From Formosa sp. (GTDB lineage: Bacteria > Bacteroidota > Bacteroidia > Flavobacteriales > Flavobacteriaceae): 56,635 nt of DNA. Numbering within the stretch: position 1 is the stretch's first letter; each line of letters begins with the position of its first letter. The stretch is from NCBI GenBank assembly GCA_002698705.1, contig NZZM01000015.1:2389-59023 (forward strand), written 5' to 3'. The notes under the pieces are model-generated. The model made no database searches and had not been told where the DNA came from. It worked only from the letters and a program-made list of their open reading frames with translations. Position numbers and translations under genes: made by a program. Positions 1,839-35,424 of this stretch are shown here, in pieces.

Positions 1839-3182
1839 TTACAATCCAGTATAATTTGATGGTGTGATTTTTTTAAGTTCAACTTTAATTTTATCATCTA
1901 CTTCCAGAGTGTCGATAAAATTAGCAATTGAATCAGCATTTATTTTTTTATTAGTCCTTGTTAGCCCCTTAAGTGCTTCGTAGGGATTTGAAAACCCCTC
2001 TCTTCTTAAGATAGTTTGAATAGCTTCAGCGACTACAGCCCAATTTTGGTCTAAATCATTCGCTATCTTTGAATTATTCAATAATAATTTATCAAGTCCT
2101 TTCAAGGATGATTTAATGGCTATAACAGTGTGTGCATATGGAACTCCAATATTTCTTAAAACTGTACTGTCAGTCAAATCACGTTGTAACCTAGATATGG
2201 GTAGTTTTGCTGAAAGATGTTCAAAAATTGCATTTGCAATTCCTAAATTACCCTCACTATTTTCAAAATCAATAGGATTGACCTTATGAGGCATAGCAGA
2301 ACTCCCAACTTCACCTTCTTTAATTTTTTGCTTGAAGTAATCCATGGATATGTAGGTCCAAAAATCACGATTCATATCAATGATAATGGAATTTATACGC
2401 TTCAATGAATCAAAAAGAGCAGCCATATGATCGTAGTGTTCAATTTGAGTAGTAGGGAAGGAATGGATAAGACCAAACTTATTTTTAAGCAGATTGTAAG
2501 CAAATTTCTTCCAATCAACTTTAGGATAAGCCAAGTGATGAGCATTAAAGTTTCCAGTAGCTCCACCAAATTTGGCCGCATTTGGAATTTTAATTAATAC
2601 ACCTAATTGTTCCTGAAGTCTTACTTTATAAACATTTATTTCTTTTCCTAGTCGAGTTGGAGAAGCAGGTTGTCCATGTGTTCTGGCAAGCATCGGAATT
2701 GTACCCCATTCTTTAGATAGTCTATCTAATTTATCAATTATTAGTTCAAGGATTGGAATGTAGATTCTATCGTTGGCAAGCTTTATGCTTAATGGTATTG
2801 CGGTGTTATTAATATCCTGAGAAGTTAAGCCAAAATGAATAAATTCTTTAAACTGGCTGATTCCCATCAAATCAAATTTTTCTTTAATGAAATATTCCAC
2901 AGCTTTAACGTCGTGATTAGTGGTAAATTCAATATTTTTTATATTAAGAGCATCCTTGGTTGAAAAATTTTCATAAATCTCTCTCAATTGAGAGTATAAA
3001 TCTTTATTAAAGCCAGAGAGCTGTTTCAAGGGTAATTCACATAATGCAATAAAATACTCTACTTCAACAAGTACTCTGTACTTTATTAGAGCTTCTTCAG
3101 AAAAAAACTTTTCTAATTCAACTACTTTCGACCTGTAACGGCCATCTATAGGAGAAATAGCATTAAGTGTTGTTAGTGACAT
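1839..3182 (-). CDS. purB: adenylosuccinate lyase
   Basis: LTTLNAISPIDGRYRSKV, GSSAMPHKVNPIDFENSEGN signature; internal ATG at 3182 is the likely start. Confidence 0.97.
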   Translation of the reverse strand: MSLTTLNAISPIDGRYRSKVVELEKFFSEEALIKYRVLVEVEYFIALCELPLKQLSGFNKDLYSQLREIYENFSTKDALNIKNIEFTTNHDVKAVEYFIKEKFDLMGISQFKEFIHFGLTSQDINNTAIPLSIKLANDRIYIPILELIIDKLDRLSKEWGTIPMLARTHGQPASPTRLGKEINVYKVRLQEQLGVLIKIPNAAKFGGATGNFNAHHLAYPKVDWKKFAYNLLKNKFGLIHSFPTTQIEHYDHMAALFDSLKRINSIIIDMNRDFWTYISMDYFKQKIKEGEVGSSAMPHKVNPIDFENSEGNLGIANAIFEHLSAKLPISRLQRDLTDSTVLRNIGVPYAHTVIAIKSSLKGLDKLLLNNSKIANDLDQNWAVVAEAIQTILRREGFSNPYEALKGLTRTNKKINADSIANFIDTLEVDDKIKVELKKITPSNYTGL

Positions 3183-3282
3183 CAAATTCAATTCGAATTA
3201 CAAAGATATTACTTTTCAGTAAAAAATTTTAATTTTAATCTATGATTAATCTTTATTTTTGAAACTATTAACTACAAATATT

Positions 3283-4530
3283 ATGCAGTTTAAGAAGACT
3301 TTATTTTGTATTGGTTTCGTTTATCCTGAACCAAAATCTTCCGCCGCTGGAATGCGAATATTACAGCTTCTTGAGTTGTTTTTAGAGAACAACTATAAAG
3401 TTGTTTTTGGTACTACTGCTAAAAATATTAGGTATTCATTTCCTTTGGAATCTATTGGAGTTGAAGTAAAATCAATTAGCTTAAATGACTCGAGTTTTGA
3501 TGCTTTTATTCTAGAATTAAATCCTTCAATAGTTCTTTTTGACAGATTTATGACAGAAGAACAATTTGGTTGGCGAGTTTCAAAAAATTGTCCAAAAGCT
3601 TTAAGAATTTTAGATACAGAAGACCTTCACTTTTTAAGAAAATCTAGACAAGAGAATATTAAGGATAAATTTCTTTTCTCAAAAGAGTTTCTTGATACCG
3701 ATCTTGCCAAACGAGAAATTGCAAGTATTTACAGGTCGGATATAACCCTTATTATTTCTGAATTTGAATATAATATTCTAGTTTCAGAAGTCGGTATTGA
3801 TCCTGGTATTTTATTTTATATTCCTTATTTTTTCAGTTTTAAGGAGTTCAAAATTAAAAATCCTTTACCAGATTTTCATGACAGGAAAAATTTTGTATTT
3901 GTAGGTAATTTTATGCATCCTCCTAATTTAAAAGCAATTTTGTATTTAAAAAATAAAATTTGGCCTAGGATAATTCAAAAAAATCCTGAAGTTGAGCTTC
4001 ATATTTACGGTTCTTATGCTACAAAGGAACATCTGTCTCTTAGTGACAGTAAAAATAAATTTAAAGTTAAAGGGCGTATAGATGATTTATATTCTACTTT
4101 ATCTACTTACCGCTTAATGCTTGTTCCTTTGGAGTTTGGTGCTGGTCTAAAGGGAAAGGTGATTGACTCCATGAGATGTGGAACACCTTGTGCTCTTTCT
4201 AGTATAGCTGCTGAGGGTATATTTGGAAATTTTTTAGTTAATGGATTTATTGAAGACAAGTTAGAAGAATTTACATTTAAAGCGGCTAAGTTATATTCAA
4301 ATAAACATTATTGGGAAGTATCTCAAAATAATGGCTTTGAGGTCATTAAAAAACGTTTTTCTAAATCAATTTTCGTAAAACCTTTTATGCAAAAAGTTGC
4401 TTTTCTAATGACTTACACCGAGAAACATAGATTGAAAAATGTAGTAGGATTGATATTGGAACATCATAGTATGAAATCTACTAAATATCTATCTAAATGG
4501 ATAGAAGAAAAAAACAGGATTTCAAAATAA
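3283..4530 (+). CDS. glycosyltransferase (GT4/group 1-like)
   Basis: FVGNFMHPPNLKAILYL ... VPLEFGAGLKGKVIDSMRCGTPCALSSIAAEGI; ATG at 3283 preferred over the TTG at 3259. Confidence 0.85.
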   Translation: MQFKKTLFCIGFVYPEPKSSAAGMRILQLLELFLENNYKVVFGTTAKNIRYSFPLESIGVEVKSISLNDSSFDAFILELNPSIVLFDRFMTEEQFGWRVSKNCPKALRILDTEDLHFLRKSRQENIKDKFLFSKEFLDTDLAKREIASIYRSDITLIISEFEYNILVSEVGIDPGILFYIPYFFSFKEFKIKNPLPDFHDRKNFVFVGNFMHPPNLKAILYLKNKIWPRIIQKNPEVELHIYGSYATKEHLSLSDSKNKFKVKGRIDDLYSTLSTYRLMLVPLEFGAGLKGKVIDSMRCGTPCALSSIAAEGIFGNFLVNGFIEDKLEEFTFKAAKLYSNKHYWEVSQNNGFEVIKKRFSKSIFVKPFMQKVAFLMTYTEKHRLKNVVGLILEHHSMKSTKYLSKWIEEKNRISK

Positions 4531-24576: not shown

Positions 24577-25875
24577 TTATCTATTCAACGCTAATTTATA
24601 AGTTTCCAAACAGCGTTCTCTTGCAAATTTGTGATCTACAATAGGTTTTACATAATTAAATTCTTGATATTCAGGAACCCATTTTTTAATATAGACGTGG
24701 TCCTTGTCAAATTTTGCAATTTGTGTGGTTGGATTAAAAATCCTGAAGTATGGTGCTGCGTCTACTCCACAACCTGCAACCCATTGCCAGTTACTTATAT
24801 TACTTGACAGTTCAAAATCATGTAATTTTTGAGCGAAGTAAGCCTCGCCCCAACGCCAATCTATGAGCAAATGTTTACATAAAAAACTTCCAACCAGCAT
24901 TCTAACCCGGTTGTGCATAAAACCGGTTTGGTTCAGTTCTCGCATACCAGCGTCAACTAGAGGATATCCAGTTTCACCTTGACACCATTTCTCAAACTCT
25001 TCTTTATTATTTCGCCATTGAATAGCTTCGTATTGAGGCTTAAAACTTTTGGTGACTGTATAAGGGAAATGCCATAAAATCTGCATAAAAAACTCACGCC
25101 ATATGAGTTCTTTTAAAAATGTAATGTTGGAGCTTTTCAAAGCTTTTTTCACAACACTGCGTATACTGATTGTCCCAAACCTAAGATGGGGCCCCAGTCT
25201 GGAAGTTCCTGCAACTGAGGGTATATTTCTTCTTTCTTCATACAAATTAATTAATTGTTTGTCCATTTTAAAGGGGGCAATTTTTAATTTTGATGTGGTA
25301 AACCCCATTGCATCTAAAGTTACCCATTGGTTGAGGTTCATTTTAGAAAGGTGCTTTAGTAAATCTTCTGAAGGGTAAGCCTCAATACATTTTTCAGTAA
25401 AAGCGCCAAGCCACTTCTTTGAATAAGGGGTGTATACTTTATAGGGCATACCATCATCTTTTGTAACTTCATTTCTTTCAAAAATCACTTGGTCTTTAAA
25501 GGATTTAAATCCAATACTTTTTTGATTTAATAAACTTTTAACTGCTTCATCTCTTCCAATAGCATAGGGCTCATAGTCGTGGTTCGTATATACAAATTCG
25601 ATAGGAAAATCAGAAATCAACTTTTTAAAAATCTGCACTGGACGCCCATAATAAGTATTTATTTTTTGATTTTTTTCAAGGGAATCGTTAAGGCTTTTTA
25701 ATTGGTTGTGTATAAAATTTACACGTGCGTCATCTTTTGGAAGCTTATCTAAGATTTCTGAATCAAAAATAAATATGGGAAGTACATTCTTATAGTTTTT
25801 TAAGATTTTAAAAAGACCATGGTTATCATAAAGTCTTAAATCTCTGCGAAACCAGAATATTGCATTGGACTTCAT
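24577..25875 (-). CDS. phr: deoxyribodipyrimidine photolyase (class I CPD type)
   Basis: AIFWFRRDLRLYDNHGLF; GETGYPLVDAGMRELNQTGFMHNRVRMLVGSFLCKHLLIDWRWGEAYFAQKLHDFELSSNISNWQWVAGCGVDAAPYFRIFNP. Confidence 0.97.
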   Translation of the reverse strand: MKSNAIFWFRRDLRLYDNHGLFKILKNYKNVLPIFIFDSEILDKLPKDDARVNFIHNQLKSLNDSLEKNQKINTYYGRPVQIFKKLISDFPIEFVYTNHDYEPYAIGRDEAVKSLLNQKSIGFKSFKDQVIFERNEVTKDDGMPYKVYTPYSKKWLGAFTEKCIEAYPSEDLLKHLSKMNLNQWVTLDAMGFTTSKLKIAPFKMDKQLINLYEERRNIPSVAGTSRLGPHLRFGTISIRSVVKKALKSSNITFLKELIWREFFMQILWHFPYTVTKSFKPQYEAIQWRNNKEEFEKWCQGETGYPLVDAGMRELNQTGFMHNRVRMLVGSFLCKHLLIDWRWGEAYFAQKLHDFELSSNISNWQWVAGCGVDAAPYFRIFNPTTQIAKFDKDHVYIKKWVPEYQEFNYVKPIVDHKFARERCLETYKLALNR

Positions 25876-27523: not shown

Positions 27524-28206
27524 TAAATTTTTAAGGATACAATTCCACAATCCAATTTAAATATTTGTCCAGATATTGACTTTGATTCTTCAGATATAAG
27601 ATATCTAGCCATACTTGCGACTTCACTTGGAGCTAAAAACTTTTTTAATGGATGCCTTTGTATAGTATTCTCTATCATTCTTTCGTTCCTGAGAAGTTTT
27701 GCTGCCAAATCAGTTTCTGTAATTGTTGGAGCGATAGCATTAACTCTGATGTTTGGTGCCAAGTCTGCAGCGACAGACTTGGTTAGACCTTCAACAGCTG
27801 ATTTTGCTGTTGCAATACTGGCGTGAAATGGCATACCTAGGGAGGTTGCCACAGTGCTAAATAACACAATTGAGCCAGAATCACTTTGAGACAATGCAGG
27901 GGTATAGGCTTGTATGGCCTTAACAGCGCCCATTACATTGATTTCAAAATCATTTCTAAAATCTTCTAAACTCAATCTTTTGAAGGGTTTTAGATTGATA
28001 CTGCCTGGGCAGTAAATCAATCCATCTGCTTGATTAATTTCGGGTAGAGCACTTGTAGTGACATCGCAACTATGATGCGTTAGATTTGCATTTGAATAAT
28101 CTGGTGTATTACGACTTATATTAATAACCTGGTGTTTTGGCAATAATGTATCAACAATAGCTTTGCCGATTCCACGACTACCTCCAATGATAATAATTTT
28201 TTTCAT
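27523..28206 (-). CDS. SDR family oxidoreductase
   Basis: KKIIIIGGSRGIGKAIVD ... VRVNAIAPTITETDLA. Confidence 0.95.
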   Translation of the reverse strand: MKKIIIIGGSRGIGKAIVDTLLPKHQVINISRNTPDYSNANLTHHSCDVTTSALPEINQADGLIYCPGSINLKPFKRLSLEDFRNDFEINVMGAVKAIQAYTPALSQSDSGSIVLFSTVATSLGMPFHASIATAKSAVEGLTKSVAADLAPNIRVNAIAPTITETDLAAKLLRNERMIENTIQRHPLKKFLAPSEVASMARYLISEESKSISGQIFKLDCGIVSLKI

Positions 28207-28427
28207 GACGTTAGGGGTCTTCCTTTGAGACGTTTTTCAATTTTTTGCTTGACAATTGTGAGCTCTTTCATTAATTCCATTAATTCAGGTTTTTTATTAG
28301 CTTTATAAACTTCGTTAATTTCAAGTATAATTGATTTCACCTCTCTAGATGCTTCTATTCTCTCACTAGTGTTTTTGAACTTCAATTTCTTTTCTAGGAA
28401 AACTTGTCCTTTTTTTTCAGCTGACAT
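28203..28427 (-). CDS. small hypothetical protein, 74 aa
   Basis: Overlaps SDR by 4 nt and starts 5 nt after folE; highly charged, helix-rich sequence. Confidence 0.75.
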   Translation of the reverse strand: MSAEKKGQVFLEKKLKFKNTSERIEASREVKSIILEINEVYKANKKPELMELMKELTIVKQKIEKRLKGRPLTS

Positions 28428-28432
28428 AATTT

Positions 28433-29119
28433 TTAATTTAAATAATTATTAAACTCTGTAATTTTTTCTGGATTATTGAATACACCACTGTAAAATGAAG
28501 TTACAGTAGCTGAAGATTCGTCTTTAATGCCTCTAGACGAAACACACAAGTGCTTAGCATCAATGATAACAGCCACATCATCTGTCCCTAATATTTTTTT
28601 TAAATCTTCTCCAATTTGATTTGTTAAACGCTCTTGTACTTGCGGTCGTTTCGCGAAATATTGTACTATCCTATTAAGTTTTGAAAGTCCAATAACCTTA
28701 CCGGACGAAACATAGGCAACATGAGCTTTTCCCATGATGGGTACAAAATGGTGTTCACAGTTTGAGTAAAAAGTTATATTTTTTTCCACCAACATTTGGT
28801 TGTACTGATATTTATTGTCAAATAATGCTATTTTTGGCTTGTTTTTTGGATTTAGACCTGAAAAAATTTCATCAATATACATTTTGGCTACTCGATCAGG
28901 TGTCCCTTTTAAGGAATCGTCATTAAGGTCAAGCCCCATTACATCCATTATTTCTTCAAAAAGCATTGAAATTTTATTCTTTTTCTCTTCATCACTTAAA
29001 GCAAATGCATTTTTTTTAAGGGGTGTTTCTAAGCTGGTGCAAAGGTGGTCGTCACCAATTTCGTGATGAGAATAATTGTTTGGGTTAACGAATTTTTGTT
29101 TAATGATATTATTTGACAT
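28433..29119 (-). CDS. folE: GTP cyclohydrolase I
   Basis: FYSNCEHHFVPIMGKAHVAYV; GLSKLNRIVQYFAKRPQVQERLTNQI; probable start MSNNIIKQKF at 29119. Confidence 0.97.
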   Translation of the reverse strand: MSNNIIKQKFVNPNNYSHHEIGDDHLCTSLETPLKKNAFALSDEEKKNKISMLFEEIMDVMGLDLNDDSLKGTPDRVAKMYIDEIFSGLNPKNKPKIALFDNKYQYNQMLVEKNITFYSNCEHHFVPIMGKAHVAYVSSGKVIGLSKLNRIVQYFAKRPQVQERLTNQIGEDLKKILGTDDVAVIIDAKHLCVSSRGIKDESSATVTSFYSGVFNNPEKITEFNNYLN

Positions 29120-29126
29120 AGATTTT

Positions 29127-29399
29127 TTAACGTTTTGATATTTTATTGTTGGAAATTGCATTTTGTCTGGAGCATTTGAAGCGACCAGATTCAAAAGATC
29201 TTAACTTTTGATGCTTTGTTTTACGACCTTGAACTCTAGCACGCCAAAGTCTAAAACTTTTTGGATGCATCTGATTTCTCATAAGAGATATAACCTGTTG
29301 TTCTGATAATCCAAACTGAAATTCTATAGCATCGAATGTAGTACGATCTTCCCAAGCCATTTCTATAATTCTGTCAATATCAATTAAATTTAAGCTCAT
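29127..29399 (-). CDS. DUF2805 (TIGR03643-like) family protein
   Basis: IDRIIEMAWEDRTTFDAIEFQFGLSEQQVISLMRNQMHPKSFRLWRARVQGRKTKH. Confidence 0.9.
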   Translation of the reverse strand: MSLNLIDIDRIIEMAWEDRTTFDAIEFQFGLSEQQVISLMRNQMHPKSFRLWRARVQGRKTKHQKLRSFESGRFKCSRQNAISNNKISKR

Positions 29400-29824
29400 A
29401 ACTGTGGAAGAATGTATTGTTTATCGAATTTTATTTTTTCAGCCAATAAATTTTCAAAGAAATTTTTATTTTCTTTAAAAGTCTTTGAGTTTTCAAATTG
29501 AATAAATCGACCTTGAGCGTGTATACTAGTGAAATCAGTTTTGTAAAAAACTAACTGGTAGAAAGGAATTGCCCATGTGAAGTTTTTTAGACCTTTGTTA
29601 ATACGGATTAGAATTCCTTTTTTTCGCAACTCTATATTTGCATAATTTAAATCTGAAATAATGTTAATAATGTAACTGAGATTTGGGCTAAGCTGTTTTA
29701 TTATCATTCTTTTTGATCCAACCCCACCTCTTTTTAATGACTCCAAAAGTCTGTAGGGTTTACCAACAAAATTTTCAAGTGTTTTTTTATGATTTTTATC
29801 GTAAAGTGTGGTATCTAGAATCAA
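29396..29824 (-). CDS. hypothetical protein, 142 aa (TTG start)
   Basis: MILDTTLYDKNHKKTLENFVGKPYRLLESLKRGGVGSKRMIIKQLSPNLSY...; start codon reads TTG; overlaps DUF2805 gene by 4 nt. Confidence 0.8.
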   Translation of the reverse strand: MILDTTLYDKNHKKTLENFVGKPYRLLESLKRGGVGSKRMIIKQLSPNLSYIINIISDLNYANIELRKKGILIRINKGLKNFTWAIPFYQLVFYKTDFTSIHAQGRFIQFENSKTFKENKNFFENLLAEKIKFDKQYILPQL

Positions 29825-29931: not shown

Positions 29932-31401
29932 TTATTTTAAGTTTTCAATAAAAGATGCTGAAGTTTCAAGTAACCTCTTCTTCTTTTCTGTATCCATTTT
30001 TTCGAAAGAACTAACCAACATTCTCATTCTTGGATTCTTTTTAAAAAATTCTTTGTGGTTATTTATGAAATTCCAAAATAATGCGTCCCAAATTAGACAC
30101 CAATCAGCTTTTTTGTAATCGCTCATTTTTAGGATGTAACTACTACCGCTTATATAGGGTTTTGTTGACATGAGACCTCCATCTGAAAATTGACTCATCC
30201 CATAAACATTTGGAACCATAACCCAATCATAGCTGTCGATTGAAAGCTCCATAAACCAGCGATATACTTCATCTGGATCAATTTCACACAAAAGCATCAA
30301 ATTACCAATAATCATCAATCTTTCAATGTGGTGGATGTATCCGGTTTTTGTAATTTTTTTTACAGAATCGTCAAATGGCTCAATTCCAGTGCTACCGTTG
30401 TAGAAACTTGCTGGCATTTTCCTCTTAAAGTTCCAAAAATTCTTGGTACGCTCTTCTGTACCTTTTGTAATATAGACACCTCTAATAAATTCTCTCCAGC
30501 CAATGATTTGCCGAATGAATCCTTCTGTTGAATTGATTGGTATATTGTGCTTTTTTGCGTAGTCTACGGAGATTTGAACGACATAATTTGGATCTAGCAA
30601 TCCGACGTTCATAAGTGGAGACAATAAACTGTGGTGCAGTTTAGTTTCATTTTTAAGCAATGCATCTTCGTAGGTCCCAAACTCTTCAAACCTCGTTTTT
30701 AAAAACTCTCTAAACCATTTTTTTGAAGACTCAAAATCATGTGGGTAGTTTGGTTTATTTGGTAATTCACCACAATTATCTGGGTAGTTTTTTTCAACAT
30801 AAATCAGTGCTTCTTCAAAATAAGTGCTTTCTGCAGGGCGCTTTATTTTTGGTGTTTGTTTTCCTTTTGGATATTTCTCCCTATTGTATTTATCATAAGT
30901 CCATTCACCGCCCTCAGGCGATCCGTGTTGCATCAGAAGTCCCATTTCTTGGCGTTGATTTTTGTAAAAAGAGGTTTGGAAGAATTTTTTCTTATCCGAT
31001 CTAAAAAATGGATTTAATTCTTCATTACCCAGCAGAAATAAGGGATTTTTAAATAATCTAAGCTCAATAGCTTTTTTTCTACAAGCATTTTTTAATCTCT
31101 TATTAAGCCAATTATCATTTGGATCATATACATTAATTTTTTTGATCTCACTGCTTAAGTTTTTAATCAGTATTCTGACATCACTCTCAATTTTTGTTGA
31201 GTCAATATATTCAGTATTGTAGTGTTCTCTTAGATAGTTTTCATAGTATTTCATACTCATTCTGTGAAATAGAATTTTCTGCTTGTGAAAATTAAAATGT
31301 TTAAAAAAAAGATATTCCTCAACTAATATGATTCTTTTGGAAGCTTGAAGTAAATCTGAATTTTCAAAAAGTTGATTGGGAAATATTAATGTTAGTTCCA
31401 T
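29932..31401 (-). CDS. cryptochrome/photolyase family protein (DPRP / FeS-BCP-type)
   Basis: ELTLIFPNQLF; EGGEWTYDKYNREKYPKG; TKTGYIHHIERLMIIGNLMLL; PNVYGMSQFSDGGLMSTKPYISGSSYILKMSDY. Confidence 0.93.
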   Translation of the reverse strand: MELTLIFPNQLFENSDLLQASKRIILVEEYLFFKHFNFHKQKILFHRMSMKYYENYLREHYNTEYIDSTKIESDVRILIKNLSSEIKKINVYDPNDNWLNKRLKNACRKKAIELRLFKNPLFLLGNEELNPFFRSDKKKFFQTSFYKNQRQEMGLLMQHGSPEGGEWTYDKYNREKYPKGKQTPKIKRPAESTYFEEALIYVEKNYPDNCGELPNKPNYPHDFESSKKWFREFLKTRFEEFGTYEDALLKNETKLHHSLLSPLMNVGLLDPNYVVQISVDYAKKHNIPINSTEGFIRQIIGWREFIRGVYITKGTEERTKNFWNFKRKMPASFYNGSTGIEPFDDSVKKITKTGYIHHIERLMIIGNLMLLCEIDPDEVYRWFMELSIDSYDWVMVPNVYGMSQFSDGGLMSTKPYISGSSYILKMSDYKKADWCLIWDALFWNFINNHKEFFKKNPRMRMLVSSFEKMDTEKKKRLLETSASFIENLK

Positions 31402-31409
31402 AGTCGTTG

Positions 31410-32705
31410 TTATTTAAGCCAATGGTTTCTGAAAAGCTTGTCACCATCATACATTTCTGCCTGTCTTTTAAGGTTAAAGGTGCGATCCCTAGGATCGTTA
31501 CCAACTCCGGAAACGTACATCCAATTACCATAATTGCTGTGTACATCATAGTCTAATAACATGCTTTCAAAATACGCTGCACCAATGCGCCAGTCAATTT
31601 TTAAAGTTTTTGCGAAGAAAGAAGCTACATTTTGACGTCCACGATTGCTCATCCATCCTGTATTTTTTAATTCAATCATGTTCGCATTTACAAAATCATC
31701 TGCCGTTCTTCCATCAGTCCATTCCTTTACAAATTTTGAATTTTCAGTCCAATTGTAAGTGATGTTTAAAATTCCTTCAAGTTTAAAAATTGCATTTTCG
31801 TGTTTGAGAGAAATGAATTTAAAAAAGTCACGCCAAATCAATTCGAAAAATAACCAATAAGTAGATTGATTTGCATAAAATTGCTGCTCAAAATCCTTGA
31901 TTTTCCAGTAAATTTGTCTAGCAGACAAACTACCATTTGCCAGCCATGGAGAAAATTTAGAACTGTAGTTTTCTCCCAAAAGGCCATTGCGTGTTTTTTT
32001 ATAGACACCCAGTGATTGAGTCTTGAAAAAATAATAGTCTAAGCGTTTTTCAGCTGATGTAGAGCCACCTTTAAAAGGACATGCGGTTCGAAGATCTACA
32101 TCAAAATCTTCAAACCCCAATTGTTCCAATGTTGGCAATTTAAAATCTATTTCAACTTTTGAACAAATCTTTTGAGGCTGAACAGAAACTAAAGGTCTAA
32201 CCGACGATTTTCTTTCTAATTGTTTTCTAAATTGTGTAAAAACCTTTGGGGTTTCGCTGTAGTGGAATGTCACATCATCGGGATGAAATAAAAATTGATC
32301 ATAACATCCATGAACGATTACATCCGAGGGTAAACATTTCTTTACAGAATTAATTCTTCTAATCTCTTCATCTGTCCATTCTTTTTGGTGGTATACTGCT
32401 TTCACACCATATGTATTTACCAATTTGCTGATTTGGTCTTTTAAAACAGAATTAAACACTAAAAGGCTTATATTTAGCGCATCAAGTTCTGATTTTAAAT
32501 CTTTTAGAGTGTCAAGTAAAAATTTAGCTCTGAATTTTTCAGTTTTTTTAAAACCAAATTGTGTTTTATTGAACTGCTTTGGAATTAAAAAATAAATTCC
32601 TATGACACGCTCTGAGTTCTTCATAGCTTTATTGAGTACAGAGTTGTCCTGAACTCTTAAATTGTCTGTGAACCAGACGATGGATGTGCTTTGTTTCTGC
32701 TGCAT
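31410..32705 (-). CDS. DASH-type cryptochrome
   Basis: [101 protein letters not shown]. Confidence 0.97.
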
Positions 32706-32819: not shown

Positions 32820-33458
32820 CTAAATTTTGGAGTTCAAGTTTTTTTTAGGGCGCTGGTATTCCAATCGGGCTTTGAGTTTTGGCAGTGTGTACCCGTCTAA
32901 ACCATTAATGGCAACAATATCACCCTTTGACAAGTTGACAAAACCATCGTCTTCCAACAAATTTTCACGAACGAATAAATCTTTTATTTCTCCAATTAGT
33001 TGTATGCAATCATTACTCTTAATAAGATATTCTTCACAGTAAGTAAGCCCAATTTGAATGGGTGAATTTTTGACAAAAGGGGCGTGCCATCCATTTTTGT
33101 ATTCTTCTTCTAAATTGGTGATTTCAAATTCTGAAACCTCCTTGTCGTATTTTGCTGAAGTATGATGAGCATCTTTGATAATTGGTGAATGAATATGATT
33201 AATAGTGAATTGACCGGTTTCTTTAATATTTTCATAAGTGTTTCTAGGAACATCTGTCGATGGCCTGAAAACGACACCCAGTAGAGGTGGGTTTGATCCG
33301 AAGTGAGTTACTGAACTAAAGACTGCAACATTTGACGTACCGGCATTGGATTTGGTTCCGATCAAGTTAGCAGATTTAAAGCCTGAACAACTATTTATTA
33401 AATTTATTTTATAAATATTTTTTAATTCATCAACATCTTTTCTATTAAAATGTATCAT
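32820..33458 (-). CDS. flavin reductase family protein
   Basis: [53 protein letters not shown]-like motif [11 protein letters not shown]. Confidence 0.92.
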
Positions 33459-34768
33459 ATGTATTTTTTGTATTTATTGATTTTAATCGAATTTGCATTT
33501 AGATCAAACATTAAATTATATAATCCAAAAAAAGTTCTATTCATATATATGAAATGTTTTGATCCTCGGGAGTTATTAAACTTCCTAAGCTCTGTGTTTT
33601 TACTATAACTCTCCGCGATGGCTCCAATTTTTCCAAAAAACTCAGGATCTGAAAAATCAAATACTGTACTTTGAAAAGGCAAAGTAGTAACATTCAAAAG
33701 TTCATGAAACATATCGATGAAAAAACTTGTTTCCTCAGGTGTGTCATACGCTGTTAGGATTTCTAATTCATAGAGTTTTTCAGTGAATAGTTTAGGGTTG
33801 TCCATTATTGATTTATCGGTCAATTCAAAATAGGGTATGTAAAATTCTTTTGGAATGGTTTTGATGCAACCAAAATCTAAAGCAATAAGCTGTGTTTCGT
33901 CGTTGATTAGAAAATTTCCAGGGTGGGGGTCGGCATTAACTTTGCGTAAGTTGTGGATTTGATGCATGTAGAAGTCCCAGAGTGCTTGTCCCAACTGATT
34001 CGATTTTTTTATATCATTGTTGTATTTGACAAACTCAGACAAATGCACCCCTTTCATATAATCCATTGTGAGAATTCTATTAGAGGAAAGCTGAGTGTAG
34101 TAGTTGGGAAATAAAATATTTGGAATGTGAGCGCAAGCATTGGCAATTTCCTGACTTTGTTCAATTTCTAGACAATAATTTGTTTCTTCAGTAAGTTTAT
34201 CTTCTACTTCTTTGAAATACTTGTCCGCTCCTCTAGACTTGATATTAAACATTCTTAGAGCGATGGGTTTTACGAGTGCTAAATCAGATTTAATACTGTC
34301 TGCTACTCCAGGATACTGAATTTTAACAGCTAATGCTTTACCGTTTTTTTTTGCTCTGTGAACTTGGCCAATACTAGCGGCATTTACCGAATTAGAGTCA
34401 AATTCGTCAAAAACGGCTTCTGGCTCTTTACCTAAATATTTTTTGAATGTTTTTGTGACTAGTGGAGAAGATAGGGGTGGAACAGAAAATTGCGCAAGAG
34501 AAAATTTTTCAACATAAGCACGTGGCAGTAGATTTTTTTCCATGCTTAGCATTTGAGCAACTTTCAAAGCACTGCCTTTAAGCTGTTTTAGAGTGTCATA
34601 AATATCTTCTGCATTGTTTTTGTTAAGGTTTTGCTTTGCAACTTCTTCGGATTTACTGATTTTTTCTCCGTAGTACTTTATGTAGTTAACTCCAACCTTT
34701 GCACCGGTAGATACTAATTTGGATGCACGTTGTAGTTTTGAGGTTGGAATTCTATCGATAGATTTCAT
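33455..34768 (-). CDS. ABC1/AarF/UbiB-family atypical kinase
   Basis: VNAASIGQVHRAKKNGKALAVKIQYPG; VNADPHPGNFLINDETQLIALDFGCIK. Confidence 0.95.
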   Translation of the reverse strand: MKSIDRIPTSKLQRASKLVSTGAKVGVNYIKYYGEKISKSEEVAKQNLNKNNAEDIYDTLKQLKGSALKVAQMLSMEKNLLPRAYVEKFSLAQFSVPPLSSPLVTKTFKKYLGKEPEAVFDEFDSNSVNAASIGQVHRAKKNGKALAVKIQYPGVADSIKSDLALVKPIALRMFNIKSRGADKYFKEVEDKLTEETNYCLEIEQSQEIANACAHIPNILFPNYYTQLSSNRILTMDYMKGVHLSEFVKYNNDIKKSNQLGQALWDFYMHQIHNLRKVNADPHPGNFLINDETQLIALDFGCIKTIPKEFYIPYFELTDKSIMDNPKLFTEKLYELEILTAYDTPEETSFFIDMFHELLNVTTLPFQSTVFDFSDPEFFGKIGAIAESYSKNTELRKFNNSRGSKHFIYMNRTFFGLYNLMFDLNANSIKINKYKKYI

Positions 34769-35424
34769 TAACGCATGTTAATTTTTTCTTTGAACAAGAA
34801 CTTACCAAAATCAATTACGCTTTTAAGAGGTTTGGTGTTTGCTAGTTCAAAACTCGCTGCAATAGATTTTTCAATAAAAAGATCTGTTTTTTCAAAATCT
34901 GCAGAATCGTCGTCAATCCAAAACTTAAGCGTTGCAAGCATTTGAATCCAATAGGATTCATTAACAACTCTGTCTTTGATGTCATCTAACTGTTTGTTAT
35001 TTAAATTAAATCCTCCTAAGTCAAGTTCATCGACGAAGTCCAAAAACTTTTTGCGAAGTGGTTTAAGTTTTTTCATTTTGCTAAGTCCTGTCATTTCCGC
35101 TTGTAGTGATTTAGAAACATAACTACGATTGGCGGTCAAATTGCCAAAAAATGTGAAATAAAAACTCAACAATTGATTCATAGCGTCGTAATTCTTGTAT
35201 TCTTTACTTTTTTTAAGTGTTTTTGTGGTATTGTTGAAGAAACTTTCATAAACGGCTGAATCTAAGGCTTCAAAAGATCCAAAAAAGCGGTAAAATTGAG
35301 ATTCATCAAAATGGTTAGCTTTTGCAAAATTATAAACGCTTTCTGGAGTTTTATTATTTTCTAGCACAAAATCCATGTACATAGTTATTAATTTGTCTTT
35401 ACTTAATTTTATTTTGTCTGACAT
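34768..35424 (-). CDS. TetR-family-like regulator (weak HTH)
   Basis: Overlaps ABC1 gene by 1 nt; N-terminus KDKLITMYMDFVLENNKTPESVYNFAKANHFDESQFYRFFGSFEALDSAVYESFF resembles TetR_N. Confidence 0.8.
   Translation of the reverse strand: MSDKIKLSKDKLITMYMDFVLENNKTPESVYNFAKANHFDESQFYRFFGSFEALDSAVYESFFNNTTKTLKKSKEYKNYDAMNQLLSFYFTFFGNLTANRSYVSKSLQAEMTGLSKMKKLKPLRKKFLDFVDELDLGGFNLNNKQLDDIKDRVVNESYWIQMLATLKFWIDDDSADFEKTDLFIEKSIAASFELANTKPLKSVIDFGKFLFKEKINMR

Follow-up and report, generated by a model that had tools for sequence, protein, structure and literature searches.

The photolyase gene and its neighbours

The window, a stretch of 56,635 nucleotides from Formosa sp. (contig NZZM01000015.1), carries a photolyase gene within a row of genes that all lie on one strand (Table 1). 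In order, the row encodes a TetR-type regulator, a UbiB-like protein, a flavin reductase-like protein, a DASH cryptochrome, the photolyase, a 142-residue protein, a DUF2805 protein and GTP cyclohydrolase I. It continues with a 74-residue protein, an SDR, glutathione-peroxidase-like, TspO-like and SRPBCC-like proteins and a class I-like photolyase, the names glutathione-peroxidase-like and SRPBCC-like being our own reading of the sequence. A 27-base element, TGTTAAANAAANNNTAAAAATGTTAAT, with two direct copies of TGTTAA, separates the photolyase from the next gene. It occurs once per genome in 9 of the 11 genomes of the genus, whichever of the two photolyase types described below lies upstream, and the reversed control gave none. 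The element is possibly a promoter or operator for the downstream genes.

Table 1. Features of the photolyase locus, in coordinates of the window
Feature	Position	Strand	Basis or remark
Cluster-less prokaryotic (6-4) photolyase homologue	29932..31401	-	489 aa, ATG start; Pfam and PDB matches, predicted fold
DASH-family cryptochrome, directly upstream	31410..32705	-	TIGR02765, 475 bits; 8 bases between ORFs
Flavin reductase-like, ABC1/UbiB-type kinase-like and TetR-type regulator genes, upstream in row	32820..35424	-	Family matches
Conserved intergenic element TGTTAAANAAANNNTAAAAATGTTAAT, just downstream of photolyase stop codon	29888..29914	-	Comparison across genus
142-aa conserved protein, next gene downstream	29396..29824	-	No Pfam match; kept across genus
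DUF2805/TIGR03643 protein	29127..29399	-	Near photolyases in many loci
GTP cyclohydrolase I, same row	28433..29194	-	Family match
74-aa conserved protein in row	28203..28427	-	No Pfam match; kept with photolyase across genus
Second photolyase at end of row, class I-like; family resemblance suggests CPD type	24577..25875	-	Family match
Pro342 codon, site of PhrB cluster ligand C350	30376..30378	-	Pro in 100% of 119 cluster-less relatives
His358, counterpart of catalytic His366 of PhrB	30328..30330	-	Alignment; role from PMC4619345
Tyr416, counterpart of lesion-binding Tyr424 of PhrB	30154..30156	-	Alignment; role from PMC4619345
Tyr422, counterpart of Tyr430 of PhrB	30136..30138	-	Alignment; PMC4619345
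K430-I437, shortened loop replacing C438/C441/C454, includes conserved Trp434	30091..30114	-	PhrB alignment
W434-x3-W438-D439	30085..30102	-	100% in 119 cluster-less relatives; packing role inferred

Family and predicted fold

The protein matches the Pfam families DPRP (PF04244, 1.2e-47) and FAD_binding_7 (5.4e-07), both above the Pfam cut-off. Among solved structures, PhrB of Agrobacterium (5KCM/4DJA, about 1e-72) and other prokaryotic (6-4) photolyases are matched over nearly the full length. The AlphaFold model, for which plasmid-derived rows were left out of the input alignment, has a pLDDT of 93.3. The sole stretch near 70 is the lesion loop (residues 401-420), and the region of the former cluster is well ordered, with 94-97 for residues 421-450 and 97 for residues 431-440. 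When the model was used as a Foldseek query, the top matches were all prokaryotic (6-4) photolyases (4DJA: TM 0.93, rmsd 2.5 Å), followed by a class II CPD enzyme at TM 0.59. The first-pass annotation had named the protein an FeS-BCP-type photolyase and proposed structure prediction as a check. The family and the fold were confirmed, the latter as PhrB-like with high confidence, but the FeS-BCP label does not hold for a protein with none of the four Cys ligands. Alignment and predicted fold place it among the prokaryotic (6-4) photolyase homologues but outside the FeS-BCPs.

Absence of the cluster ligands

In the alignment with PhrB, P342, K430, a gap and L436 take up the ligand sites C350, C438, C441 and C454 in turn, and the loop from the C438 to the C454 position is a net 10 residues shorter. 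The CxxC pair and the upstream Cys are indeed missing, as had been noticed from the letters, and no alignment placed four Cys at the ligand sites. With none of four ligands and a predicted fold that matches PhrB with high confidence, the earlier description as a cluster-less variant is upheld; the cluster-less state is well supported. PhrB (FeS-BCP) otherwise resembles the protein in its fold and in the repair residues of the FAD domain, and the two are about 31% identical from end to end. The window protein differs from it in the missing ligands, the shorter loop, the replacements W342 to Y and Y391 to F, and the residues of the antenna pocket. SePhrB of Synechococcus elongatus (8IJY), an enzyme with an 8-HDF antenna, also has the same fold but, in contrast to the window protein, possesses the cluster ligands (PMC9178010).

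Repair residues, electron path and packing

In PhrB, mutagenesis established the roles of His366 (proton donor), Tyr424 (lesion binding) and further repair residues (PMC4619345), and Asp179 and Asp254 are the aspartates of the Mg site (PMC12082625). The equivalents of His366, Leu370, Tyr424, Tyr430, Trp390, Asp179 and Asp254 show 100% conservation across the cluster-less sequences. Two positions of the electron path are altered. Tyr391 is replaced by Phe, which PhrB tolerates at this site (PMC5887102). Trp342 is replaced by Tyr, as in 90% of the cluster-less clade; some 4-Cys proteins have Tyr there too, so the change is not specific to loss of the cluster. Trp342 is essential for photoreduction in PhrB, and with Tyr in its place the reaction could be slower or follow another path.

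PhrB without its cluster is insoluble (PMC4619345), which suggests that loss of the cluster needs compensation. At the former cluster site, the Asp two residues after the Pro that replaces C350 is present in 100% of the 119 cluster-less sequences. We infer that P342/D344 and W434/W438/D439 pack the space left vacant by the cluster. In the deeper cluster-less branches, the position of Trp438 is occupied by Val or Ile.

Distribution and age of the cluster-less clade

Among the aligned rows that cover all four ligand sites, 120 have no Cys and 38 have all four, with no intermediates (the fragments L016 and L028 are left out of this count). Additional rows, among which one gene occurs twice, gave the same picture, 33 with no Cys and 11 with four. 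A photolyase tree built without the cluster columns separates the two types by a single branch (SH-aLRT 99), equivalent to one change. The all-or-none pattern and the single branch argue that loss of the ligands is an old character of the clade, acquired on one deep branch, and not a recent event in the genome of the window. The cluster-less clade is large and centred on Bacteroidota, with a PxD and WxxxWD signature of its own. Members were also found in Runella, Lacihabitans and Algoriphagus, whose habitats are not limited to the open sea.

Exchange of the two types in one slot

Of 11 genomes in the genus of the window, six have the 4-Cys enzyme and four the 0-Cys enzyme (the genome of the window, G001, G007 and G010). 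Both types occupy the same slot of a conserved row of about 14 genes; in G010 only the upstream side and the N-terminal part of the photolyase are covered, and in G001 the TetR and UbiB matches are missing from the row. Between the types, the photolyases are 30-31% identical and the neighbours about 58-88%. The break in similarity lies near the gene ends, and the 27-base element after the stop codon is identical in both types. Occupation of the same slot by such dissimilar photolyases, between far more similar neighbours, points to replacement of a single gene by horizontal transfer and suggests that the types are functionally equivalent. On a tree of the flanking genes the type changes about four times (3-4 in bootstraps) versus once on the photolyase tree, which argues that transfer and replacement took place more than once in the family. 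The 0-Cys and 4-Cys versions thus appear to be interchangeable. A second candidate swap was found between L174 (4-Cys) and L042, L054, L063 and L083 (0-Cys), which have another gene order in common around the slot. An in-place swap was sought in two other mixed genera (g229 and g47) and was absent, the types lying in different neighbourhoods. On a Vibrio plasmid, genes for cry-DASH, a 4-Cys photolyase and an SDR follow one another.

At a further locus (L030, 4998-6464), the photolyase groups with that of the window, the flanking genes take a basal position in the genus, and there is no cry-DASH match, a pattern that hints at another exchange of the photolyase gene between lineages.

No genome with both types was found in surveys of the phylum (0 of 297, 7.3 expected under independence) and of the order (0 of 398, 13.0 expected), although the P values (1e-4 and 1e-7) overstate the exclusion, since classes were assigned by score, scoring covered only the best 3-5 candidates in each genome, and shared ancestry was ignored. 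A second, divergent cluster-less photolyase (38%) is present in G010, with genes for a dihydroxy-acid dehydratase and a HemG-like flavodoxin as neighbours (L170 1-4000, G010:C119). This copy (L028/L170) was rejected as a case of co-occurrence; it lies on a 4.1-kb contig whose gene content looks foreign to the bin.

Proposed function and its alternatives

The reading that we consider very probable is that of a working FAD-dependent, cluster-less (6-4) photolyase, with protein packing in place of the cluster and horizontal transfer as the means of slot exchange. Its observed foundations are the family, the absent ligands, the kept repair residues, the all-or-none pattern across the clade and the slot swap. 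To these it would add activity, the type of lesion, the packing role of the Trp, Pro and Asp residues and the direction of the swap. Blue light would reduce FAD through the aromatic chain F383-W382-Y334 (Y391-W390-W342 in PhrB), and the reduced FAD would then donate an electron to the (6-4) photoproduct, with His358 acting as the proton donor during repair. Packing by P342/D344 and W434/W438/D439 would take the place of the [4Fe-4S] cluster and thereby make the fold independent of iron. Cluster-less and 4-Cys genes would have replaced one another in the same operon slot by horizontal transfer.

An altered repair or signalling function had been suggested at first. The repair residues are invariant in the clade, the region at the cluster site is ordered in the AlphaFold model, and congeners hold a 4-Cys (6-4)-type photolyase in the same slot; the suggestion is therefore unsupported. 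Its specific forms differ in weight. One is a shift of the clade to CPD repair, or to dual CPD/(6-4) repair; CPD repair has been suggested for the cluster-less Phr2 of Synechococcus from UV-B versus UV-C survival (PMC9426592). Such a shift is unlikely here, given that the equivalents of His366 and Tyr424 are fully conserved, that the row, with its class I-like photolyase and its DASH cryptochrome, would have no need of another CPD enzyme, and that the protein is a one-for-one stand-in for the 4-Cys (6-4)-type enzyme of its congeners. The kept residues and the slot swap speak against CPD repair in the present clade without deciding the matter. A blue-light receptor, that is, a cryptochrome-like regulator without repair activity, would fit the TetR-type regulator in the row and the regulatory role of the related CryB of R. 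sphaeroides (stated in PMC9178010). We regard this as very unlikely: the lesion-binding and proton-donor residues are all kept, the alignment reveals no C-terminal extension relative to PhrB, and CryB itself has the cluster, so that cluster loss is no pointer to signalling.

There is little to recommend the retention of a cluster or other metal through non-Cys or shifted ligands, which we hold to be highly improbable. Cys435, the one shifted Cys that had been noticed earlier, has acidic residues close by and aligns with A453 of PhrB, one residue ahead of the ligand C454. However, the position is Cys in only 17% of the cluster-less relatives (Gln in 55%) and is thus not a conserved ligand; neither Cys nor His residues form a conserved replacement set there, and the loop is shortened by 10 residues. 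That the ligands are missing through an error of sequencing or assembly, a frameshift or decay of the gene can practically be dismissed, even though the sequence comes from a draft assembly of 48 contigs with 83% completeness: the reading frame is intact and no CxxC is encoded in any frame of the gene, so that no frameshift hides the motif; the comparison with an 85% identical congener (dN 0.08, dS 1.0; dN/dS about 0.08) indicates purifying selection and no decay; and the same state recurs in well over 100 other genomes, single-contig ones included.

The antenna pocket

In the Caulobacter enzyme, DMRL is held by D11, S35, E38 and W53 (PMC12082625). None of these residues is present in the window protein, where N9, E29, F32 and R47 occupy the corresponding positions; across the cluster-less clade these sites are H/N, E (93%), F (96%) and R (99%). 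The W53 site is variable among the 4-Cys members themselves (F in 76%), so D11 and E38 carry the weight of the argument. A pocket remodelled in this way makes it improbable that DMRL, bound in the known manner, serves as the second chromophore. Residues E29, F32, F33, H46 and R47 are nearly fixed in the cluster-less Bacteroidota clade, and the antennas of subgroup M, a published group without the four Cys, are described as undetermined (PMC9178010). We put forward only tentatively, as a possibility with the odds against it, that the clade binds an antenna new to the family and that the enzyme is an iron-free drop-in module repeatedly exchanged with the 4-Cys version through one operon slot.

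Relation to known cluster-less photolyases

PromaPL of Prochlorococcus marinus is described as a cluster-less prokaryotic (6-4) photolyase (Ma et al. 2019, as cited in PMC9178010), members of subgroup M are likewise without the four Cys (PMC9178010), and several orthologues without ligands are noted in PMC12082625. By published description, PromaPL and subgroup M belong to the same family and stand apart from the 4-Cys members, as do the proteins found here. The present clade differs in its centre on Bacteroidota and its own conserved PxD and WxxxWD. Ma et al. reportedly found that Mg stimulates (6-4) repair by PromaPL and suggested that iron limitation had led to the loss of the cluster. Because cluster-less members have already been published, the cluster-less reading is right but of limited novelty; the present analysis adds that, within a single genus, it is exchanged with the 4-Cys enzyme in the same slot. 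What the [4Fe-4S] cluster does in prokaryotic (6-4) photolyases is still described as elusive (PMC12082625). The presence of either version in the same slot among close relatives, with nearly constant surroundings, amounts to a natural paired experiment on the contribution of the cluster and makes its role directly testable. It also argues against equating loss of the cluster with loss of repair.

A search for a counterpart of PromaPL gave no match in the phage collection and no picocyanobacterium among the plasmid matches listed. A cluster-less photolyase, 43% identical, lies on a viral-classed contig (L228 1-5171, IMGVR_UViG_3300006481_000154), where it adjoins genes resembling T4-type phage replication genes. 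This lead had no match in 50,697 phage records, and the contig may be a chimera, since the ORF at 2750-3418 looks like a fusion. Another cluster-less photolyase, on an 83-kb IMG/VR contig (L231 3001-4398), differs in its loop (GSGDDDWVELWNACYY) and has Ile where PhrB has Trp390. A deep-branching cluster-less homologue (L144 186-1634, G099) has Leu, Thr, a gap and Ala in place of the four ligands and Phe in place of Trp390, and its photoreduction is possibly altered.
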